From Gammaproteobacteria bacterium (GTDB taxonomy: Bacteria; Pseudomonadota; Gammaproteobacteria; Eutrophobiales; Eutrophobiaceae): DNA of 64,000 nt. The notes under the pieces were generated by a model, which saw only the letters and a program-made list of their open reading frames with translations, did no database searches and was not told the origin of the DNA. Position 1 is the first letter of the stretch. Every line of letters begins with the position of its first letter. Both the position numbers and the translations under genes were made by a program. Shown piece after piece: positions 45,868 through 61,593 of the stretch. The stretch covers positions 77,148 to 141,147 of the forward strand of contig CANKCB010000006.1 of assembly GCA_947480335.1 (NCBI GenBank), written 5' to 3'.

Positions 45868-47223
45868 ATGAGATTTGATTTAGCAAAAAGCGGGTTAACT
45901 TGCTTGCTGGCCACCGTGTTATCTTTATTTGGCGTGATTTCTCCAGTTATGGCCGTAACGCCGGCGCCTCAGTTTATCCAGTTCAGCCCCAGCGCCACTA
46001 AAGGGGCTTTGTATCTTCCGGATCCTGAACTATTTCCCAAACCGCATATCGCGATTATCGTCATGCACCGTGATTCCAATTTCATGTCGCATGTCGCCAC
46101 ACGCGAAATGCCCAAACGGGGGATTGTGGCACTGGGCATGAATGCCCGTTGTGACAACAATGAAGCCTTATGTGCACCCTGGGAAAATAATGCACTGGAT
46201 GTGAAACAGGGACTGGAGTATCTGCGCAAACTGCCCGGTATTACCCGTGTTATTTTACTGGGCCACAGCGGGGGTGGACCAACGATGAGTTTTTACCAGG
46301 CAGTGGCAGAAACCGGCAAGGACTTCTGCCAGCAATCCCAAAAACTGATGAAATGCCCGGACACACTGGCGAACCTGCCTGCTGCTGACGGATTGATATT
46401 ATGGGATGGGCATCCTGGCAACGGACTGGGTGTCATGCGTAGTCTGAATGCAGCAATCATAAACGATGCTGACATTATCAATCATAATGCGGCCCCGCAA
46501 TTTGACCCTGCACTCGACCCCTTTGATCCTGCGAATGGTTATGACCCGAACGGATCTCACTATACGGAAGAGTTTAAGGAAATGTTTTTCGTAGGCCAGG
46601 CAGCAAGAATGAATCGTCTGGTTGATATTGCCCTGGAAAGAATGAAACAAATTGAGGCGGGAACCTATCCTTATCCTGATGATGATGCGTTCATCGTACC
46701 TGCAGGAGCTGGCACACGTCTGGCCAATCACGATGCCAGTATTGACCATACATCTGCCAAACCACAAAAACTGTTGCGCAATGATGGCACCATTGAAGAT
46801 TGTTGTGTCGTGGCCAGCGTACGCAAGGTCGGACAGACCCCGGAAGTCAGCCGCAGCTTTTCCGGCGTGCTGTTCCAGACACTGAAATCATTTCTCAGTG
46901 TCAATGCGATGCGGGCAAAACAATCGATGACCGATGTGGACTGGTGTTCGACCAATAATTCCTCACCGTGCAATCTGCAGCACGTTTCCGTACCGTTGCT
47001 GGTAGTGGCCATGGGCGGTCACTATTTTATACGTGACAGCGAAATCAATTATGATATGGCTGTCAGCAAGGATAAGGACTTTATTATTGTTGAAGGCGCG
47101 ACCCATGGCGGCACACCCTGCAAGGAATGTATGCCGGATAGTCAAACCTACGATGGTCGATACGATAATTCAATCAAGAACAATTTTGACTATCTGGTCA
47201 AATGGATGAATGCCCGGTTTTAA
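45868..47223 (+). CDS. Exported Cys-rich alpha/beta hydrolase-like protein, tandem copy 1
   Basis: A 451-residue exported protein (signal peptide ending VISPVMA). It has an alpha/beta hydrolase nucleophile elbow LLGHSGGGPTMSF near residue 134, and a late His in GATHGGTPCKEC. Many cysteines are placed in pairs (CDNNEALC, DCCVV, DWCSTNNSSPC, CKEC), as expected for disulfide-bonded periplasmic protein. The next gene is a close paralogue. GGAG precedes ATG. The family is not named by me; esterase or lipase activity is a guess. Confidence 0.75.
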   Translation: MRFDLAKSGLTCLLATVLSLFGVISPVMAVTPAPQFIQFSPSATKGALYLPDPELFPKPHIAIIVMHRDSNFMSHVATREMPKRGIVALGMNARCDNNEALCAPWENNALDVKQGLEYLRKLPGITRVILLGHSGGGPTMSFYQAVAETGKDFCQQSQKLMKCPDTLANLPAADGLILWDGHPGNGLGVMRSLNAAIINDADIINHNAAPQFDPALDPFDPANGYDPNGSHYTEEFKEMFFVGQAARMNRLVDIALERMKQIEAGTYPYPDDDAFIVPAGAGTRLANHDASIDHTSAKPQKLLRNDGTIEDCCVVASVRKVGQTPEVSRSFSGVLFQTLKSFLSVNAMRAKQSMTDVDWCSTNNSSPCNLQHVSVPLLVVAMGGHYFIRDSEINYDMAVSKDKDFIIVEGATHGGTPCKECMPDSQTYDGRYDNSIKNNFDYLVKWMNARF

Positions 47224-47291
47224 ATGATGTCTTGCATTTGAAAAACTAAATTTCTGTAGCGACATGTGGTAGTTTACTTTAGGAGGTGGTT

Positions 47292-48635
47292 ATGAAAAGA
47301 AGTTATCTTGCAACATTGTTCCTGTCTATTTTAACCCTGTTGGCATCACAGGCATTTGCCAGTCCGCCACCACCGCAGTTTGTTCAGTTCAGTCCAAGTG
47401 CGACTATGGGAGCACTGTATTACCCGGATCCGGACATTTATCCGAATCCGCACATCGCCGTTCTGGCAGCTCATCGAGATGGCAATTTCATGTCGCACAT
47501 CTCAACTCAGGAGTTTCCAAAGCGCGGAATCGTGGCAATGGGTATGAATCCACGCTGCCAAAACAATGAAGCATTGTGCGCACCCTGGGAAAACAATGCA
47601 TTGGATATAAAGCAGGGTGTGGAATACCTGCGTAAGCTACCCGGCATTACCAAGGTAATATTACTTGGTCATAGTGGTGGTGGACCAACAATGAGTTTTT
47701 ATCAGGCTGTGGCTGAAAATGGATTGGCCTACTGTCAGGATCCAAAACGGTTGATGAAATGCGGAGATAAACATGCTGACTTACCCCCGGCGGATGGTCT
47801 AGTACTGTTTGACTCGCATCCAAGTAATGGTGTTAACGCCGTACGTAGCCTTAATCCCTCGGTTACGAATGACGCAGACATCATTGAACACAATGCATTA
47901 CCGAAGATTGACTCGACACTTGATCCCTATAATCCTGCTAACGGCTATAACCCTGATGGGGTGTCACACTATAGTGATGACTTCAAGGATAAATATTTCA
48001 GGGCACAATCTGCACGCATGAACAAATTAATCGATATAGCTCAGAATAAACTGAAACAAATTGAAGCTGGCACTTATAAATACCCGGATGACGATGCTTT
48101 TATCGTACCCAGAGGAGACCAGACAAGATTACTCAGTATGGATTTGAGTATCGATAAAAGTTCGTTGAAACCAGCCAAGTTACTCAAGAATGATGGTTCA
48201 ATTGAAGATTGCTGTATTGTAAGCAGCGTACGCCCAACAGTTCTGGAACCGAAGGCAAATGAAGCATTTCGGGGAGGAACACTGTTCCTGACTTTGAAAT
48301 CGTTCCTGAGTGTCCGCGCCATCCGTTCTACACAATCAATGACTGATGTTGACTGGTGCTCCAGCAATAATTCTGCCCCATGCAGTCTGCAAAAGGTTTC
48401 GGTTCCATTACTGGTGGTTGCAATGGGTGGACATTATTTCATTCGAGACAGCGAAATCAGTTATGAAGCCGCCGCCAGTAAAGACAAGGACTTCATTGTT
48501 ATTGAAGGCGCAGTACATGGTGGCACTCCCTGCAAGGATTGCATGCCCAAAGGTCAGAAGTATGATGGACGATATGATAACGCTGTGAAAAATCATTTTG
48601 ACTATGTGGCCAAATGGATTAACGCCCGCTTTTAA
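47292..48635 (+). CDS. Exported Cys-rich alpha/beta hydrolase-like protein, tandem copy 2
   Basis: A 447-residue paralogue of the previous gene, lying 68 nt downstream. The same landmarks occur: signal peptide (ASQAFA), CQNNEALCAPWENNALDIKQ, LLGHSGGGPTMSF, DCCIV, DWCSSNNSAPC and CKDC. The two are alike over nearly the full length, pointing to tandem duplication. ATG 47292 follows AGGAGGTGGTT, so an upstream in-frame GTG (47286) is not needed. Confidence 0.75.
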   Translation: MKRSYLATLFLSILTLLASQAFASPPPPQFVQFSPSATMGALYYPDPDIYPNPHIAVLAAHRDGNFMSHISTQEFPKRGIVAMGMNPRCQNNEALCAPWENNALDIKQGVEYLRKLPGITKVILLGHSGGGPTMSFYQAVAENGLAYCQDPKRLMKCGDKHADLPPADGLVLFDSHPSNGVNAVRSLNPSVTNDADIIEHNALPKIDSTLDPYNPANGYNPDGVSHYSDDFKDKYFRAQSARMNKLIDIAQNKLKQIEAGTYKYPDDDAFIVPRGDQTRLLSMDLSIDKSSLKPAKLLKNDGSIEDCCIVSSVRPTVLEPKANEAFRGGTLFLTLKSFLSVRAIRSTQSMTDVDWCSSNNSAPCSLQKVSVPLLVVAMGGHYFIRDSEISYEAAASKDKDFIVIEGAVHGGTPCKDCMPKGQKYDGRYDNAVKNHFDYVAKWINARF

Positions 48636-49676: not shown

Positions 49677-51608
49677 ATGACAAACAGGCGAGATTTCATC
49701 AAGGGCGTAGCCGGTACAGTCACTGGTGTCGTGGCCACTGCAGGTCTGAGCACACAAAAGGAGGCTGCCGCTCAACAGGCAAACCCCGAAAAAACATCTG
49801 CACTTCCCCCTACACATTATGAATCCAGTATGGAAAAAGGTCCGATACCGGAAGGCTATACTGAAGCGGAGGCACAACACTACTTTGTACAAAGCCCGGG
49901 GTCGGACTACATGGTGGATGTGGTCAAAAACCTAAATATTGACTATATCGCTTCAAATCCAGGTTCCAGCTTCCGTGGCTTTCAGGAATCGATTACCACA
50001 TACGGTGGCAACAAGAAGCCGGAGTTCATAACCTGTCTGCATGAAGAATCTGCAGCTGCATTGGCACACGGTTATTCCAAGATTGCCTATAAGCCGATGG
50101 GAGTGGCCGTTCATGGTACTGTAGGTTTACAACACGCGGCCATGGGAATCTATAACGCTTATTGCGACCGGGCACCGATGGTGATTTTTGCCGGTAACCA
50201 TATGGAAATGACAGGTCGTCGTCCGGGTGCGGAGTGGAATCATTCTGCTCTCGATTGTGTCAAGCTGGTTCGTGACTTTATCAAATGGGATGATATTCCC
50301 CTTTCGCTTGAACACTATGGTGATTCACTGACACGCGCGTACAAAATTGCAGTCACCCCACCGATGGGCCCCACAGCCATTGTTATTGATGGTCACTTGC
50401 AGGAAGAAGACACACACGGCAAGGTTCCACCCATACCCAAATATACTTCGCCCAGTCCGCCGAATGGCGATATGGGCGCACTGACTGAAGCGGCCAAACT
50501 GCTCGCCAATGCAGACAACCCCGTCATACTGGCTGGTCATGTGGCACGCACACCGGTTGGACTGGATCTTATGATCGCACTGGCCGAAACACTGGAAGCT
50601 CCTGTTTCCGGTGATGGCAGAATGAACTTCCCCAACAACCATTATCTTTATCAGGGTGGCCGTACATTGATTCGTCAGGCCGACGTCATACTCGGACTCG
50701 AGAATCGTGACCTGTGGGGTCAAGTCAATGCCTCGCGTGATCTGGTACATCGTGACAGCAAGCGGGTAGCACGTGACGATGTCAAACTGATCTCTATCAG
50801 CTCTGACGATTTGTATATGTTATCGAATTACCAGAATTTCCAGCGCTTCCAGCCGGTTGATCTGGATATTACCGGTGATGCCCAGGCATCATTGCCGTTC
50901 CTGATTGAAGAAATCAAACGCCAGATGCCGCGTAACAAGCGTGCGCAACTTAAAGAACGTGCAGAAAAGCTGAAAGCTTCATTCCAGAAAGGTGTGGAGG
51001 AAGAACGCATCGCTGCAGCCCGCGGCTGGAATGACCGGCCTATCAGTCTGTATCGCCTCAGCCTTGAACTTTATGATGCCATCAAGGATCGTGACTGGTC
51101 GTTTGTATCCCAACAACCTTCCGGCATGAACTTCTGGCCCATGACCAAACACTACCATCATATCGGTGGCTCAGGCGGTGCAGGCATCGGTTATGAACTA
51201 CCTGCTTCGGTCGGCGCAGCTTTGGCCAATCGTGAGCATGGTCGTTTTTCAGTAGCAATCCAACCAGATGGTGACTTCCTGTTTGCTCCCGGCGTGGTTT
51301 GGACTGCCGCACATCACCGTATCCCCATCCTTTGGGTCATGCACAATAACCGCGCCTATCATCAGGAACTAATGCACCTGCAACGTATGGTTACCCGACG
51401 CCAACGCGGCAATAACAATCAGGCAAAAATCGGTAATGTATTCGAGGATCCATTCATCAACTTTGCCAAACTGGCAGAAGGCTTTGGAGTTTATTCAGAA
51501 GGTCCTATTACTAATCCGGACGATCTGGGTCCCGCTATCCGGCGTGCGGCCGCCATCGTAGACAGTGGCATGCCGGCACTTGTCGATGCTGTCTGCCAAC
51601 CAGCCTAA
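49677..51608 (+). CDS. Tat-exported thiamine-diphosphate (acetolactate synthase-like) enzyme
   Basis: A 643-residue enzyme of the ThDP-dependent pyruvate-decarboxylase/acetolactate-synthase superfamily, unusual in carrying a Tat signal at its N-terminus (TNRRDFIKGVAGTVTG). The pyrimidine domain begins near residue 77 with SDYMVDVVKNLNIDYIASNP and the essential Glu is in CLHEESAAALAHGYSK near residue 122. The diphosphate-binding domain has PDGDFLF near residue 532, then WVMHNN, the GDG..NN motif. A 16-nt gap separates it from a small cytochrome c gene, suggesting a periplasmic oxidative ThDP reaction. The substrate is unknown. Confidence 0.88.
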   Translation: MTNRRDFIKGVAGTVTGVVATAGLSTQKEAAAQQANPEKTSALPPTHYESSMEKGPIPEGYTEAEAQHYFVQSPGSDYMVDVVKNLNIDYIASNPGSSFRGFQESITTYGGNKKPEFITCLHEESAAALAHGYSKIAYKPMGVAVHGTVGLQHAAMGIYNAYCDRAPMVIFAGNHMEMTGRRPGAEWNHSALDCVKLVRDFIKWDDIPLSLEHYGDSLTRAYKIAVTPPMGPTAIVIDGHLQEEDTHGKVPPIPKYTSPSPPNGDMGALTEAAKLLANADNPVILAGHVARTPVGLDLMIALAETLEAPVSGDGRMNFPNNHYLYQGGRTLIRQADVILGLENRDLWGQVNASRDLVHRDSKRVARDDVKLISISSDDLYMLSNYQNFQRFQPVDLDITGDAQASLPFLIEEIKRQMPRNKRAQLKERAEKLKASFQKGVEEERIAAARGWNDRPISLYRLSLELYDAIKDRDWSFVSQQPSGMNFWPMTKHYHHIGGSGGAGIGYELPASVGAALANREHGRFSVAIQPDGDFLFAPGVVWTAAHHRIPILWVMHNNRAYHQELMHLQRMVTRRQRGNNNQAKIGNVFEDPFINFAKLAEGFGVYSEGPITNPDDLGPAIRRAAAIVDSGMPALVDAVCQPA

Positions 51609-51623
51609 TCCGGGAGAACTCAC

Positions 51624-52025
51624 ATGACTGTATATCTTCATTCATTACTACGAAACACACTGTGCCCGTTGTTCATGTTGCTGCCCCTGCTATCCTTGCC
51701 AGCGACTGCGCAACAAAAAACGTTAGATTACAACGGCGAGGTGGATGATGCCGGACACGCCGAGGGTTACCGTGATTTCGTAGAAAATGGTTGCTGGCAG
51801 TGTCATGGTTTCCAGGGACAAGGCATGGCAGGCCCCTCACTGGCCCCCAATCCGTTACCATATGAGGCATTTTCTGCGCTGGTACGCAAACCCGCCAACG
51901 TGATGCCGGCATTTTCACCCAACGTGCTAAGCGAAGAGAAGCTGAAACGAATTCATCAGTATCTGCAGTCAATACCAAAGACCGCCGATCCGGATGCTAT
52001 CCCCTTGTTGTCGACCAAAAAATAA
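51624..52025 (+). CDS. Small exported c-type cytochrome paired with the ThDP enzyme
   Basis: A 133-residue protein with a signal peptide (LLSLPATA) and a single heme c site CWQCHGFQGQGMAG near residue 52; the axial Met is probably within NVMPAFSPNVLSEEKL near residue 92. GGGAGAACTCAC precedes the start. It follows the ThDP enzyme by 15 nt, so it is probably its electron acceptor. The region 52026-52181 after it holds a long hairpin. Confidence 0.85.
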   Translation: MTVYLHSLLRNTLCPLFMLLPLLSLPATAQQKTLDYNGEVDDAGHAEGYRDFVENGCWQCHGFQGQGMAGPSLAPNPLPYEAFSALVRKPANVMPAFSPNVLSEEKLKRIHQYLQSIPKTADPDAIPLLSTKK

Positions 52026-53509: not shown

Positions 53510-55690
53510 TCAGGCTTGCAATGCAGCGAGCACTCTCTCTTTAGTAAATGGCATATGCGACAAGCGTTTGCCTGTCAAACGGAAAAATGCACCAGCGACG
53601 GCTGCTGGTATACCCGGGTTACCAATTTCACCCAACCCTTGTGGACGTTCCTGTTGCGGATCCACAAATTCAATATGGATTTCTTCCGGCGTATCCGACA
53701 TACGCATGACATTGTAGTCATGAAAATTGGATTGTTGCACAATACCGTCCTTCATCGTTACGCGTTCATGTAACACACTGGACAGCCCGTAATTAATACC
53801 ACTTTCAATATTGGCCTTTGCGGCATCCGGTTGAACCACCAGACCACCATCAACAGCCAGCCACACCTTATGTACCCTGATCTTACCGGAATTTTTATCA
53901 AGCGATGCTTCAACCACGACAGCACCCAGAGATCCTGAACGTTCAGTGATCGACAAACCGAGAGCACGACCTTCCGGCCTGGGAGCCTTCCAGTCCGACA
54001 TCTGCGCCACTTTCTCAAAAACCTTTTTTCCGCGCGGGGTGATGGCCATCTGGTTCAGACGGAAATCAACAGGATCGATTCCTTCTGTCACGGCTATATG
54101 ATCAATAAACTCCTCAATCGCAAACAGATTGAATGGATGCGATACCGCTCGCCAGTGTTTCAGACGGATACCATGGGAGGTGCCACGCAAATCAATATAT
54201 TGATTAGGTACCTTGTAATACAAATCAATCTTCATGCCGCCTGTCAGCAAACTGTCTCCGTCGCCCACTATACAATGCTTCCAGCCTGTAACCTTGCCGG
54301 AGGCATCAAGAGCCGCTTCCAGGCATTGGTAGTTCTGGGGACGAAACATTCCGTAACCTATATCCTCTTCACGGGTCCAGATCAATTTGATCGGTTTTTT
54401 AATTTCACGCGCCACCAGTGCTGCTTCGACCGCATAATCACCTTCCGAACGCCTGCCGAATCCTCCACCCATATAACACTGATTAACAGTAACCTGACTC
54501 TGATTGACACCCAACGCTTCGGCTACCAGCTGACGGCAGCGATCCGGTGACTGACTGCCATCCCAAACTTCAATCTTATCGCCTGCCGCATTTACACGGG
54601 CAACTGCATTCAACGGTTCCATCTGTGCGTGATAACCATAATCTGCTCGAAAATCCGCCTTGTAAGTGCGTGCCGCACTCGCAAATGTGGTATTCACATC
54701 CCCTTGACTGAACACGGGTGTAGATTGCATTGCCTGATCCGCGTGAACCTTGACATAGTCATCGTCCAGTACAGATTCAGAATTAAATCCACGCGACAAG
54801 GTCGTTCCCCAGCTGACCTTGATTTGCTTGCGAGCAGCTATGACACTGGCAAAAGACGTGCCGACGATCGCCACACCTGTAGGTAATTTTACTGTCGAAC
54901 GGATACCTTTGAGCGCACTAATCTCGTCTACATTCCAGCTCTGGGGGGCCGCACCCTGCACAGGTGAATGTACAGTGGTCGCATACAGCATCTCGGGCAA
55001 GTTCACGTCAATTGCAAACTGGGCCGCACCATTGACTTTCAAAGGGATATCACGACGTGGTAGGGTTTTACCGATTAACCGATACTGTTCGGGCTTTTTG
55101 AGATCGCTTTCACTGACTTCAGGCAGGCCCTCTGCAGTAACTACAGAAGCTGCAAGGTCACCGTACTTGATACGGCGATTACTGGCCGCATGGACTACGA
55201 CACTGGGTTCAGTCGTCAACTCACTGATTGGCACATTCCACTGTCTGGCCGCAGTCTGTAACAACAGTTTGCGTACCTGGGCACCAGCTGTACGCATCAC
55301 ATCGAAATAACTGCGTACTGCCCGCGATCCGACAATAGCCATTGATTTTCGATTACCACTTCCATAACCATAGATATCAACATCACTCGGTGCCCATACC
55401 AGATTTACCTTGTCCCAGTCAGCATCCAGTTCCTCGGCCAGCATTAATGGCACACTGGTCATGGATCCCTGCCCCATTTCTGCTCCCGCGGTAAACAGGG
55501 TGATGGAATTGTCATCATGTATTGTCAACCATGCTGACACGGCCTTGTCTGCTGTTTGCGCAGGGCTGTTCGCGGACAATAACATGGCTGTACCGCTGCT
55601 AGTGATTGTGACCGCAAAACTGAGTGTTGCGGTCCCTTTGAGAAAATCACGACGGCTTACGATCGCCACATGATTGAAATCTGTCGTCAT
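53510..55690 (-). CDS. Tat-exported molybdopterin hydroxylase large subunit (IorB/aldehyde oxidase type)
   Basis: A 726-residue subunit of the xanthine-oxidase family, like isoquinoline 1-oxidoreductase beta subunit, which binds the molybdopterin-cytosine-dinucleotide cofactor. The N-terminus has a Tat motif VSRRDFLKGTA. Family segments include GAEMGQGSMTSVPLMLAEEL near residue 68, QCYMGGGFGRRSEGDYAVEA near residue 407, and the late RPQGLGEIGNPGIPAAVAGA, which contains the catalytic Glu region (GEIG). It starts 3 nt after the iron-sulfur subunit gene. The substrate is unknown, possibly an aldehyde or N-heterocycle. AGGAGGG lies upstream. Confidence 0.92.
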   Translation of the reverse strand: MTTDFNHVAIVSRRDFLKGTATLSFAVTITSSGTAMLLSANSPAQTADKAVSAWLTIHDDNSITLFTAGAEMGQGSMTSVPLMLAEELDADWDKVNLVWAPSDVDIYGYGSGNRKSMAIVGSRAVRSYFDVMRTAGAQVRKLLLQTAARQWNVPISELTTEPSVVVHAASNRRIKYGDLAASVVTAEGLPEVSESDLKKPEQYRLIGKTLPRRDIPLKVNGAAQFAIDVNLPEMLYATTVHSPVQGAAPQSWNVDEISALKGIRSTVKLPTGVAIVGTSFASVIAARKQIKVSWGTTLSRGFNSESVLDDDYVKVHADQAMQSTPVFSQGDVNTTFASAARTYKADFRADYGYHAQMEPLNAVARVNAAGDKIEVWDGSQSPDRCRQLVAEALGVNQSQVTVNQCYMGGGFGRRSEGDYAVEAALVAREIKKPIKLIWTREEDIGYGMFRPQNYQCLEAALDASGKVTGWKHCIVGDGDSLLTGGMKIDLYYKVPNQYIDLRGTSHGIRLKHWRAVSHPFNLFAIEEFIDHIAVTEGIDPVDFRLNQMAITPRGKKVFEKVAQMSDWKAPRPEGRALGLSITERSGSLGAVVVEASLDKNSGKIRVHKVWLAVDGGLVVQPDAAKANIESGINYGLSSVLHERVTMKDGIVQQSNFHDYNVMRMSDTPEEIHIEFVDPQQERPQGLGEIGNPGIPAAVAGAFFRLTGKRLSHMPFTKERVLAALQA

Positions 55691-55693
55691 GGT

Positions 55694-56146
55694 TCAACCC
55701 TCCTGTGAGGCACGCTCAATGGCGGCGAGTATGCGATTGTATGTTCCGCAACGGCAGATATTGCCATCCATATGGTTAATGATAACTTCGCGCGACGGTT
55801 TTGGATTGGTCGCCAGTAATTCGGCGGCCATCATGATCTGCCCTGACTGGCAATATCCACATTGTGGCACCTGCTCGGCTATCCAGGCCTTTTGTAAGGG
55901 ATGACTTGAATCCTGAGACAATCCTTCAATTGTGGTAACGCGGGTATTGTTTACCGTGCTGGCCTTGATCAGGCAGGAACGTACTGCCTTGCCGTCAATA
56001 TGCACTGTACAGGCACCACAAATACCTGCACCACAACCGTACTTGGTACCGGTAAGCTGCAACTGGTCCCGCAATACCCACAACAATGGCGTATCACTGT
56101 CGACATCAAGCGATACCTGCTTTCCATTAAGGGTAAAATCAACCAT
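55694..56146 (-). CDS. [2Fe-2S] subunit of molybdopterin hydroxylase (IorA type)
   Basis: A 150-residue electron-transfer subunit with two [2Fe-2S] clusters. The plant-type cluster motif is [16 protein letters not shown] near residue 38 with a following Cys in RSCLI, and the second cluster has [11 protein letters not shown] near residue 97 and CRCGTYNRI near residue 131. The start 56146 ([14 protein letters not shown]) was chosen because AGGGGG precedes it; the longer frame adds unrelated sequence. No separate FAD subunit is nearby, as for IorAB-type enzymes that pass electrons to a membrane cytochrome. Confidence 0.93.
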
Positions 56147-56271
56147 GCGCCATCCCCCTGAAATTTGAATGAATAGATACGAATTAGATGAATTACATTG
56201 GCAAAAGCTACACGCCGTCGTAATGACTGTCAATTACCGGTACTACTACGCTGAGTTGTATTGAGCCGCCG

Positions 56272-57839: not shown

Positions 57840-59183
57840 TCAGCTTACGTTCAATAGTTCCAGACGACCATTACCATCACCAAATTTATCCACCGGCATA
57901 TCCAGTTTATCCAGCAAGGTAAGATACAGATTCGCCATCGGGGTTTTGTCCGGATACCTAAGATGCAATCCACCTTTCAATTTGCCACCGCCACCTCCAA
58001 GCAATACCACGGGCAGATTCTGTAAGGAGTGTGCATTACCATCGCTGATCGAACTTCCAAACATGATCATACTGTTATCGAATAAAGAACCGTCCACATC
58101 GGGCGTGGCTCTCAGCCTGTCCAGATAATAGGTCAACAGTGTCGCATGATAGGTATCAATCTTGGCCAGCTTTTCCAGATTTTCAGGATCATTTCGATGA
58201 TGTGATATTGAATGGTGTACATCTGGCACACCAATTTGTGGGTAGGTACGATTACTTTGTTCCGGCGCCATCATGAAAGTAATCATACGGGTCATGTCCG
58301 TCTGGAAGGCCAATATTTGCAAATCAAACATCAGTTTCAGATGATCAACAAAATCAGCCGGGATGCCAGCTGGTCTTTCCATTTGTGGCAACTCACGACC
58401 TGACTGTTGTTCAGCCATCTGGATGCGCCGTTCAACATCCCGCATCCCATCCAGATATTCGGACAATCGTTCCCGATCCGCTGCACCAACACGCCCCATC
58501 ATCGTCGTGGCTTCTGCAGTGATATCGTCCAGTATGCTTTTCTCCTTGTGAATTCGAGTCAACCGATCTGCTGTATTGGTGCTGTTACTGGCGCCGAACA
58601 GTCGTTCAAACACGGCGCGCGGGCGATATTCCACCGGCAATGGTGTCGTGGGCGTGCGCCAGGACAGCGTGTTCATGAATGCACAGCTCCATCCCTTTTC
58701 ACAGTTACCAGCCACGTCCTTACTATGCAATCCGAGTTCCAGTGAAGCCAATTGGGTGTATTTTCCCAGTTCACGTGCGATGATCTGATCAATCGATACA
58801 CCGGTAACACCTTCACTCTGCGGGTGCACACCTGTCAGAAATACCCCTCCGGCACGCTCATGCGGAGCCGTCTCACCTTCTCCAGGTAGTGCATTACCAG
58901 CACTGTTACACAGACCAGTCAGTACCAGCATATTCTCTCGATATGCAGCGAGCGGCTGTAATGACCTCGACAGGTCATAAGACCTTCCGGTCGTTGTTGG
59001 CGTCCATTGCGACATATTCATCCCGTTCGGTGAATAGATAATCGACATTCGTCGTGGTATCTGGACACCTTGATTCGTTCCGGCAAACACAGGAATCATT
59101 GCGTCGAGCATGGGTAATGCAACGGCCGCGCTGGCGCCGCGCAAAAAAGTACGACGCGCCATTGGTTTCTTAATTATCAGCAT
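57840..59183 (-). CDS. DUF1552 family Tat-exported protein
   Basis: A 447-residue protein with a Tat signal (KPMARRTFLRGASAAVALPM). The body matches the DUF1552 type: IYSPNGMNMSQWTPTTTGR near residue 50, HERAGGVFLTG near residue 102, FGSSISDGNAHSLQNLP near residue 375 and HLRYPDKTPMANLYLTLLD near the end. The function is unknown; the fold may be related to alkaline-phosphatase-like DUF1501 proteins. It starts inside the last 14 nt of the DUF1592 gene, so the two are coupled. GGAGGG precedes ATG 59183. Confidence 0.88.
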   Translation of the reverse strand: MLIIKKPMARRTFLRGASAAVALPMLDAMIPVFAGTNQGVQIPRRMSIIYSPNGMNMSQWTPTTTGRSYDLSRSLQPLAAYRENMLVLTGLCNSAGNALPGEGETAPHERAGGVFLTGVHPQSEGVTGVSIDQIIARELGKYTQLASLELGLHSKDVAGNCEKGWSCAFMNTLSWRTPTTPLPVEYRPRAVFERLFGASNSTNTADRLTRIHKEKSILDDITAEATTMMGRVGAADRERLSEYLDGMRDVERRIQMAEQQSGRELPQMERPAGIPADFVDHLKLMFDLQILAFQTDMTRMITFMMAPEQSNRTYPQIGVPDVHHSISHHRNDPENLEKLAKIDTYHATLLTYYLDRLRATPDVDGSLFDNSMIMFGSSISDGNAHSLQNLPVVLLGGGGGKLKGGLHLRYPDKTPMANLYLTLLDKLDMPVDKFGDGNGRLELLNVS

Positions 59184-61593
59184 GGTCAGGGACCCTCCTC
59201 GTCTGGAACGGTTGACTGTCAATTACAGCCATTATTAATGAAGACAATCGGTGTTCATCCGCCACGGTTCGGCGCATGATTTCGCGCATTGCTGGTGCAT
59301 CAGTATGTTCTACACCGCGACCTAGTGCATAGGTGAGCAGTTTTTCTATCGCTGTCATCACAAAATCATAATTACGCTGCTGAATCAGCACACTGCGAAG
59401 TTGATCCGGACCTTCAAAGGGCGTGCCATCCGGCAAAGTACCGGTCGAATCGATCGGTGAACCCGACTTGGCATCCACAGTACGCCAGCTGCCAATTGCA
59501 TCGTAGTTTTCCAGTGCAAAGCCAAGTGGATCCATAACCTTATGGCAACTGGCACAAACCGGATTTGCACGGTGCTGCTCCATCTGTTCGCGCATCGTCA
59601 GCACCTTGCCCGCATCATTCTTGTCGCGCAATCCTGGAACATTGGGTGGCGGTGGCGGTGGCGGGGCACTCAGAATGTTCTGCAAAATCCATTTTCCACG
59701 TATGGTCGGTGCCGTACGATTTGCATAGGATGTCACCGTGAGTATACTGCCCTGTCCCAACAATCCACCACGTGTCTTGTCTGGCAAATTTACTTTTCGG
59801 AAGTGGCTACCATAAATATCCGGGATATTGTAGTGGTGTGCCAGACGTTCATTGATAAATGTGTAATTTGCATCGAGTAATTCAAGCAACGGGCGATTAT
59901 TACGCATCACATACTCAAAGAACAATTCAGTCTCCTTGCGAAATGCCACACGTAAATTGTCATCAAAATAGGGGAATTGTTCGCCATTTGGAGCCACAGT
60001 ACTGAGTCTGTTCAGGTTGAGCCATTGCGAAGCAAAATTCTTTACCAATGCTGAAGAACGGGTGTCTTCCAACATGCGTTCAACCTGCTGTTTCAACACT
60101 TTGGGTTTATGTAGTTGACCTGATTTTGCAATCTTTAATAATCCCTCATCCGGAATACTGCTCCAGAGAAACAGTGACAGCCTTGTCGCCAGATCCAGAT
60201 CCGATAACTGATACACCTCATCCACTGCAAGTTTCTCCGGTATCTGTTCACTGACAAAGATAAACTTCGGCCCGGCCAATATGCGTTCTAATGCCAACCC
60301 GATACCTTCATCAAAACCGCCTTGCTCCTGCCCTTGGCGATAAAACGCCATCAACCCTGCAAGTTCATCAGCCGTCAAAGGACGTCGATACGCACGTTGT
60401 CCCAATGTTGAAATTATTTTTTTGGCGCAGGATGGATCATTGCTATGCTTCGGTTTGCAGACATATATACGCTGACGACTGGGGCTGTCTTCAGTTACTT
60501 TCGGTTCGAATGGCCCTTCTACTATCACCGTACTGACACCGGGCACTCCGGCCTTGAACTGTGCATAATCGATAATCGAGTGCTGCGTATATTTGGGTTG
60601 CTCTGGCATTAAGGTACTGTCGATAAAAGCCACATTCAATTCATGTGTACCTGCCCTGGCCGGAAACCGCAGCTCAAGCGCCTTATCTGCAAACCGTTCA
60701 TACTGCTCCTGTGCCGGCACACCCTGGGCACTGGTAGAATAGATACCACTAGATTGTCCAAGTTTTTCACCGCCAACACTGAGTTTGCCAATGCGTTCGT
60801 CATCCAGTCTGATATCAACCTGATGAGCACCGTTTAACAATCCGCGTATATAATCGCGGGAGTTACGCTGTAACCGGACACGAATTATGTATTCTCCATC
60901 CATCGGAAAATGATGTTTGACTGTCATGCCACCGCGCGATCCCAGTGGCATGTCTTCTCCAAGCCAGTCATCCTGCATCAGGTATCTTGGAACATTGTAG
61001 GTGACCATATCCGGCGGCATATTTTCCTGACCAAGCGCTAACCTGCGTATCGTGCGCGCTGCAACAATATATTGTTCTGCAAGCATGGGTGACAAAGTCA
61101 AAACTGCCCCCACATTGTCAAAACCGTACATTGTGTCGTCGGGCGGCAGTAGCGTGTCATCGTTGACTTCGACAGCGAGCAGTTCGCGAATAGCATTGAA
61201 ATATTCGGTACGATTCAGGCGTCGTAATGTAGCTATAGCTGGACGGGGGTGATTTGATCCGTAAACATCCAGTGAGGTTTCCAGATAGGTGGCAAAGGTT
61301 TCATATGTAGCAATGTCCGGACGAGGCATACCGGAAGGTGGCATCGAACGCACTTTGATTTTGCGTAATACCTTTTCCCAGGTGCTTGCTCCCGGACCGA
61401 TGTTTTTTACATCCAGACTTTGCAGGGACAGTCCTGCTGTGTGCAGTGCGTCGTTATGGCAGCCGATACAATACTGATTAACCGTAGCCTGAAAATCCTG
61501 GGGTGCGTTCATTACAGGCACTGACTGTGCCAAACCGGTATTAACTTGACTAAATAGCACAACGGCTATCCAGCTTATCAACTGTTTCTGCAT
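59170..61593 (-). CDS. DUF1592/DUF1588/DUF1585 multi-domain cytochrome-type exported protein
   Basis: An 807-residue exported protein with signal peptide (VNTGLAQ). A heme c site CIGCH near residue 42 begins a PSCyt-like domain, then DUF1587 (LRRLNRTEYFNAIRELL near residue 110), DUF1595 (ISTLGQRAYRRPLTADE near residue 405), DUF1592 (SDLDLATRLSLFLWSSIPDE near residue 470), DUF1588 (NYTFINERLAHHYNIPDI near residue 580, proline stretch APPPPPPPNVPG) and DUF1585 (CASCHKVMDPLGFALENYDA near residue 700), which carries a second CxxCH. It overlaps the DUF1552 start. Such proteins are abundant in Planctomycetes and some proteobacteria; the role is unknown. Confidence 0.9.
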   Translation of the reverse strand: MQKQLISWIAVVLFSQVNTGLAQSVPVMNAPQDFQATVNQYCIGCHNDALHTAGLSLQSLDVKNIGPGASTWEKVLRKIKVRSMPPSGMPRPDIATYETFATYLETSLDVYGSNHPRPAIATLRRLNRTEYFNAIRELLAVEVNDDTLLPPDDTMYGFDNVGAVLTLSPMLAEQYIVAARTIRRLALGQENMPPDMVTYNVPRYLMQDDWLGEDMPLGSRGGMTVKHHFPMDGEYIIRVRLQRNSRDYIRGLLNGAHQVDIRLDDERIGKLSVGGEKLGQSSGIYSTSAQGVPAQEQYERFADKALELRFPARAGTHELNVAFIDSTLMPEQPKYTQHSIIDYAQFKAGVPGVSTVIVEGPFEPKVTEDSPSRQRIYVCKPKHSNDPSCAKKIISTLGQRAYRRPLTADELAGLMAFYRQGQEQGGFDEGIGLALERILAGPKFIFVSEQIPEKLAVDEVYQLSDLDLATRLSLFLWSSIPDEGLLKIAKSGQLHKPKVLKQQVERMLEDTRSSALVKNFASQWLNLNRLSTVAPNGEQFPYFDDNLRVAFRKETELFFEYVMRNNRPLLELLDANYTFINERLAHHYNIPDIYGSHFRKVNLPDKTRGGLLGQGSILTVTSYANRTAPTIRGKWILQNILSAPPPPPPPNVPGLRDKNDAGKVLTMREQMEQHRANPVCASCHKVMDPLGFALENYDAIGSWRTVDAKSGSPIDSTGTLPDGTPFEGPDQLRSVLIQQRNYDFVMTAIEKLLTYALGRGVEHTDAPAMREIMRRTVADEHRLSSLIMAVIDSQPFQTRRVPDHADN

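Follow-up and report, generated by a model that had tools for sequence, protein, structure and literature searches.

A putative Tat-exported thiamine diphosphate enzyme kept beside a cytochrome c gene across phyla: a possible periplasmic route for 2-oxo-acid oxidation

Introduction

To our knowledge, thiamine diphosphate (ThDP) enzymes of the pyruvate oxidase, pyruvate decarboxylase and benzoylformate decarboxylase (POX/PDC/BFDC) superfamily are cytoplasmic, and their electrons, if any, go to a flavin, lipoamide, ferredoxin or NAD. The window, by which we mean the whole 64,000-nucleotide stretch of gammaproteobacterial DNA analysed here, encodes a member of this superfamily that carries a twin-arginine (Tat) signal, with a cytochrome c gene directly behind it. 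Is this pairing a lasting one, and what would a ThDP enzyme do with a cytochrome? BFDC-fold ThDP enzymes, class I cytochromes and Tat export are each known, and their combination is undescribed in the literature that could be searched. An earlier note on this DNA knew of no described pathway with an exported ThDP enzyme and a dedicated cytochrome; in the open-licence literature, where absence is a weak indication, we too found no description of one.

Results

The 643-residue ThDP protein begins with MTNRRDFIKGVAGTVTGVVATAGLSTQKEAAAQ, in which an RR motif precedes a 17-residue uncharged stretch with an Ala-rich end (Table 1). The RR motif, hydrophobic stretch and AxA-type end are features of Tat substrates, from which we predict export, and a TatC gene was found in the organism's genome. 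Pfam places all three TPP_enzyme domains in order and above curated cut-offs (N 9e-19, M 6e-10, C 1e-19); this order, the cofactor Glu and the GDG...N Mg motif identify a member of the POX/PDC/BFDC superfamily. None of the curated NCBIfam models scored above its own cut-off, the best being PRK08327 (233 of 456 bits), and the benzoylformate decarboxylase model reached 151 bits against a cut-off of 493. The nearest structures to the AlphaFold model (pLDDT 87.9) were benzoylformate decarboxylases (Z 36-37). The earlier note's picture of a Tat signal ahead of an intact ThDP enzyme agrees with the N-terminus and the three domains, and the pyrimidine-domain Glu and PDGDFLF...HNN motif that it named are E123 of CLHEESAAALAHGY and D531 and N558; this first observation was correct in every detail that could be tested.

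The next gene starts exactly 15 nt after the ThDP stop (gap 51609-51623) on the same strand and encodes, as had been read before, a monohaem cytochrome c, with a single CWQCH and M94 (in MPAF) as candidate axial Met. It is the only copy of this cytochrome in the genome. Its subfamily shares the pattern GCxxCHGxxGQG...GPrLAP...VR...MPpY...D..LaDIyaYL...IPLL, and a second haem domain occurs in 8 of 75 partner cytochromes. The modelled fold is class I (pLDDT 81), nearest to the p-cresol methylhydroxylase subunit (TM 0.78), XoxG, cytochrome cL and SorU, all of them acceptors for periplasmic dehydrogenases; because no Foldseek E-value fell below 0.001 (range 0.003-0.03), this likeness is only a lead. 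The p-cresol methylhydroxylase subunit PchC, the nearest small acceptor fold, was also among the few PDB sequence matches (E 4e-5), but its own partner is a flavoprotein and the likeness is one of class I cytochromes in general.

Table 1. Positions of the features discussed, in window coordinates unless another locus is named
Feature	Position	Strand	Basis or conservation
ThDP-dependent enzyme, benzoylformate-decarboxylase fold, 643 aa	49677..51608	+	Pfam, AlphaFold model, kept in 85 genes
Putative twin-arginine signal peptide, residues 1-33 (end approximate)	49677..49775	+	MTNRRDFIKG...EAAAQ; RRxF[LIM] in relatives
E123, cofactor-activating Glu (BFDC E47), within CLHEESAAALAHGY	50043..50045	+	84/85 branch, 8/8 sister rows
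H146 (BFDC H70)	50112..50114	+	85/85 branch, 8/8 sister rows
H189, at BFDC L110 / PDC H114-H115 position	50241..50243	+	85/85 branch, 8/8 sister rows
Diphosphate/Mg motif D531-G-D ... N557-N558	51267..51350	+	D531, N558 invariant
E564, at BFDC L461 / PDC E473-E477 position	51366..51368	+	Glu 85/85 branch; Asp 8/8 sister
Cognate monohaem class I cytochrome c, 133 aa, Sec-type signal	51624..52025	+	Pfam Cytochrome_CBB3 1.5e-11
Haem motif CWQCH, residues 57-61	51792..51806	+	C57, C60, H61, M94 invariant in 55 relatives
Tat-tagged molybdenum hydroxylase large subunit (53510-55690) and 2Fe-2S subunit (55694-56233)	53510..56233	-	Pfam MoCoBD_1/2, Fer2/Fer2_2
L002-type ThDP gene	L002:1417-3668 (-); G000 contig C3 129259-131151		

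A scan across the genomes of 84,980 bacterial and archaeal species yielded at least 568 encoded relatives; the best 80 were read with 6 kb flanks and joined by two from plasmids, one of Caballeronia zhejiangensis and one of Novosphingobium sp. KACC 22771. A single branch (SH-like support 80-94) comprises 85 genes from Acidobacteriota and from Alpha-, Beta- and Gammaproteobacteria. RRxF[LIM] stands ahead of an uncharged stretch in 82 of the 85, counting L017 as signal-bearing on the start identified for it; two of the three exceptions (L032, L060, L084) are fragmentary or uncertain in their start. Of 82 rows scanned, 68 had AxA. A single scan of viral contigs turned up no relative.

The cytochrome is kept as well. 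A same-strand CXXCH occurs within 450 nt past the stop in 72 of the 82 branch genes with enough DNA, versus 2.2% of 1192 random windows. With the search extended to 900 nt and a MauG-like false match (L060) taken out, 74 genes had a cytochrome, and in three more the cognate gene is rearranged (on the opposite strand in L045 and L064; upstream, with a damaged haem motif, in L074). In total, the cognate subfamily lies beside about 77 of the 85 genes; the median gap is 14 nt, and 6-8 members have no cytochrome nearby. The check that the earlier note had proposed, adjacency across genomes, therefore came out strongly in favour of the pairing across phyla. In a search of 72,556 plasmids with the cytochrome alone, only the two that bear the exported ThDP gene matched, and the independent annotation of the Caballeronia record lists a 'thiamine pyrophosphate-binding protein' and then a 'c-type cytochrome'. 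ThDP and cytochrome distance matrices correlate at r=0.79 (n=71; best of 2000 permutations 0.17), of which shared species history explains part. The window gene clusters with the acidobacterial L009/L010 for both proteins, and transfer therefore seems, on these groupings, to move the pair jointly. We saw no natural ThDP-cytochrome fusion among the 85 genes.

Copy number varies at some loci. The Novosphingobium gene has two cytochrome c genes in succession behind it (L006:10689-11401) and the Caballeronia gene (L005) one two-haem cytochrome, while the alphaproteobacterial L083 has three tandem exported-ThDP paralogues, each with its own cytochrome c.

Nineteen further loci, at 31-40% identity, fell outside the branch wherever they were placed (17 tested). 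This sister clade, which includes Sinorhizobium, Cupriavidus and Novosphingobium pCAR3 among others, shares E123, H146 and H189 with the exported branch but differs in its surroundings: neither a Tat signal (0/19) nor a cognate-type cytochrome (0/19) was found. An NAD-type aldehyde dehydrogenase (ALDH) lies within about 5 kb at 15 of the 19 sister loci versus 1 of 83 exported loci, a comparison of unlike samples, the former mostly plasmids and the latter MAG contigs, many of them short; with a mean of 10.8 kb for the exported branch against 11.1 kb, mean length does not account for the difference. Some sister loci also carry an alpha-hydroxy-acid oxidase, phthalate genes, 4,5-dihydroxyphthalate decarboxylase or Tct transporters. 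We read this to mean that the sister enzymes supply the NAD-linked ALDH with an aldehyde, and that the exported branch swapped that sink for a cytochrome.

These counts bear on the simplest objection, that an ordinary cytoplasmic ThDP enzyme has acquired an RR N-terminus by chance and adjoins an unrelated cytochrome operon. Both features recur in more than 90% of the 85 genes across phyla and at none of the 19 sister loci, which makes this account hardly credible. Coincidence of a chance motif and a chance cytochrome was rejected on the branch-wide conservation, the absence from sister loci and the random-window rate.

Active-site residues were compared in BFDC numbering on an alignment of 85 exported-branch and 8 sister rows. 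The reference, which we take to be the P. putida BFDC sequence, serves as a lead and is not a database record. Its numbering agrees with that in PMC13327070 (L461, L110, S26, H70, H281). E123, H146, D531 and N558, the last two aligning to BFDC D428 and N455, are conserved in the exported branch and the sister clade alike; S97, at BFDC S26, is kept as Ser by 83 of 85 exported rows, and 7 of 8 sister rows have Ala there. S97 and H146 are thus conserved, but the H281 position is His in only 35 of 85 rows, which leaves the S26-H70-H281 triad of BFDC incomplete. Residues confined to the exported branch include H562, M566, N384 and Q386. Overall, the enzyme resembles BFDC (MdlC, EC 4.1.1.7) in its fold, its ThDP/Mg residues and the equivalents of S26 and H70, at 20-24% identity, but differs in its predicted export, its cytochrome partner, its greater length (about 115 residues more, signal included), and the replacement of L461 by Glu and of L110 by His.

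Those two replacements point to the substrate. His occupies the L110 position in pyruvate, indolepyruvate and phenylpyruvate decarboxylases, and oxidases and lyases mostly have Gln there; in the same residue table, the pairing of Glu with His is confined to 2-oxo-acid decarboxylases, and pyruvate oxidase has Ile with Gln (PMC13327070). A 2-oxo acid is therefore well supported, on residue identity, as the substrate class. Pyruvate and indolepyruvate decarboxylases, which have the same His (H114) and Glu (E473), are less similar overall, cytoplasmic and without a cytochrome partner. The central domain is present by Pfam, POX is absent from the top 50 structure-match rows, and the Ile480 and Gln122 of POX are replaced by E564 and H189. 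As far as residues can tell, the catalytic set S97, H146, H189 and E564 is decarboxylase-like, not pyruvate-oxidase-like. The earlier suggestion of an envelope oxidation of 2-oxo acids or acyloins is thus retained in its first half, by way of H189 and E564; nothing specific spoke for acyloins.

E564 also raises the question of whether the carbanion is oxidised at all. The Glu at this position protonates the carbanion in PDC and 2-hydroxyacyl-CoA lyase, and pyruvate oxidase has Ile there (PMC13327070). Since Glu is what the aldehyde-forming enzymes have, aldehyde release is possible, and an aldehyde leaving unoxidised counts against the explanation that we prefer below. The invariant change from Glu in the branch to Asp in the sister clade suggests that the two clades treat this step differently. 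The main rival, favoured by E564, is accordingly worded as follows: a periplasmic non-oxidative 2-oxo-acid decarboxylase would release the aldehyde, a separate periplasmic enzyme would oxidise it, and the cytochrome would accept the electrons of that enzyme. The window has a candidate for the second enzyme in the Tat-tagged molybdenum hydroxylase and its 2Fe-2S subunit, 1.5 kb downstream, which may be an aldehyde oxidase acting on the aldehyde product in this organism. Both are retained in L008, the closest relative, which has 89% identity, syntenic flanks and a genome of 2.2 Mb. Elsewhere, no aldehyde-oxidising gene is conserved: relatives of this hydroxylase lie near 4 of 83 branch loci, another Mo-hydroxylase type near 7 and an ALDH near one, whereas the cytochrome directly adjoins the ThDP gene. 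With PDC-like residues on one side and this scatter on the other, we consider the rival rather unlikely.

Another way to account for both E564 and the cytochrome is a ThDP-dependent aldehyde or acyloin dehydrogenase, in which an aldehyde would add to ThDP, E564 would take the C2-alpha proton and the cytochrome would oxidise the carbanion, with no decarboxylation. Such a Glu does serve reactions in which the C2-alpha conjugate acid must be deprotonated, but His at the H189 position is tabulated only for 2-oxo-acid decarboxylases (PMC13327070). The separate ALDH and alpha-hydroxy-acid oxidases at sister loci likewise indicate 2-oxo acids, and we regard this dehydrogenase as improbable.

Other neighbours were surveyed. 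The Mo-hydroxylase genes are convergent with the ThDP/cytochrome pair; as fixed partners, Mo-hydroxylase, UbiD/UbiX, the Tct transporter and TcuA were each rejected, since none occurred near more than 10 of 83 loci. A UbiD-family decarboxylase occurs near the exported ThDP gene in L011, L012, L013, L016, L017, L020, L038, L069, L081 and L082, and those from Comamonadaceae have UbiX too, a hint of aromatic acid metabolism. Upstream in the window, 45868-47223 and 47286-48635 (+) encode tandem paralogous secreted alpha/beta-hydrolase-like proteins with a GHSGGGP motif, which matched no Pfam or NCBIfam model at 0.001; a relative is retained upstream of the pair in L008. At 57843-61593 (-), a DUF1552 (HXXSHH) protein lies beside one with DUF1587/1592/1588/1585/1595, domains that are known as a set mainly in proteins of planctomycete type and are met here on gammaproteobacterial DNA.

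The same genome encodes a second Tat-tagged ThDP protein (L002; 632 aa), with 24% identity to the window enzyme and with T and E in place of E564 and H189. A different, SorB-like monohaem cytochrome c gene lies 54 nt upstream, a layout shared by L111 and L112, so that all three close copies have their own upstream cytochrome. The genome of the closest relative holds two L002-type copies, 85% and 59% identical, each with the cytochrome gene upstream; the more distant L097 and L098 (38%) keep the RR motif and have no adjacent cytochrome. With two exported ThDP types that are deeply separate and each have a cytochrome of their own, a functional link becomes more likely. Another paralogue in the genome (L003) is an ordinary acetolactate synthase within an ilv operon.

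Discussion

A conserved adjacent class I cytochrome c with a Sec-type signal, as found here, is a feature of cytochrome c-linked periplasmic dehydrogenase pairs. The explanation that we prefer, and to which we give an even chance, is a periplasmic ThDP-dependent decarboxylating dehydrogenase of 2-oxo acids, probably aryl-glyoxylates, that feeds its own cytochrome c. The enzyme would fold and load ThDP and Mg in the cytoplasm before Tat export. In the periplasm, it would bind the 2-oxo acid and decarboxylate it to the enamine/carbanion on ThDP, which the dedicated cytochrome would oxidise in two one-electron steps; the acyl-ThDP would be hydrolysed to the acid, and the cytochrome would pass the electrons to a terminal oxidase. 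One envelope enzyme would thus do what its cytoplasmic sisters appear to do with an NAD-linked aldehyde dehydrogenase as partner. No flavin or iron-sulphur relay was identified in the pair, and we know of no ThDP enzyme of this fold that reduces a cytochrome directly.

Within the superfamily, the nearest parallel is pyruvate oxidase (POX, PoxB): the ThDP carbanion of PoxB is oxidised for the respiratory chain, but POX uses FAD and is cytoplasmic. In logic, the closest experimental precedent is the group of flavin amine dehydrogenases NicA2 and Pnao with CycN, likewise a Tat-exported enzyme and an adjacent Sec-exported cytochrome c acceptor. Among flavin amine oxidoreductases, a Tat signal and an adjacent cytochrome c predicted cytochrome-using dehydrogenases, as kinetics confirmed, and the authors rate the adjacent cytochrome a stronger predictor than the signal (PMC12224317). 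Being flavin enzymes of unrelated fold and chemistry, they serve as a works-like comparison only.

More tentatively, and with some doubt, we consider a broader proposal: that a ThDP:cytochrome c oxidoreductase, with one-electron transfer in the periplasm straight from the ThDP enamine to the partner haem c, evolved at least twice, once with a downstream cytochrome (window type) and once with a SorB-like upstream one (L002 type), replacing the cytoplasmic route through a decarboxylase and an NAD-linked aldehyde dehydrogenase.

Many soil and water bacteria carry this branch, which is common among Acidobacteriota of soil and in many uncultured Proteobacteria; its proteins, if annotated, are labelled only 'thiamine pyrophosphate-binding protein' and 'c-type cytochrome'. 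If the preferred explanation is true, cytochrome c would be a new redox partner for ThDP, and these bacteria would oxidise keto acids in the periplasm, tied straight to respiration and with transport saved.
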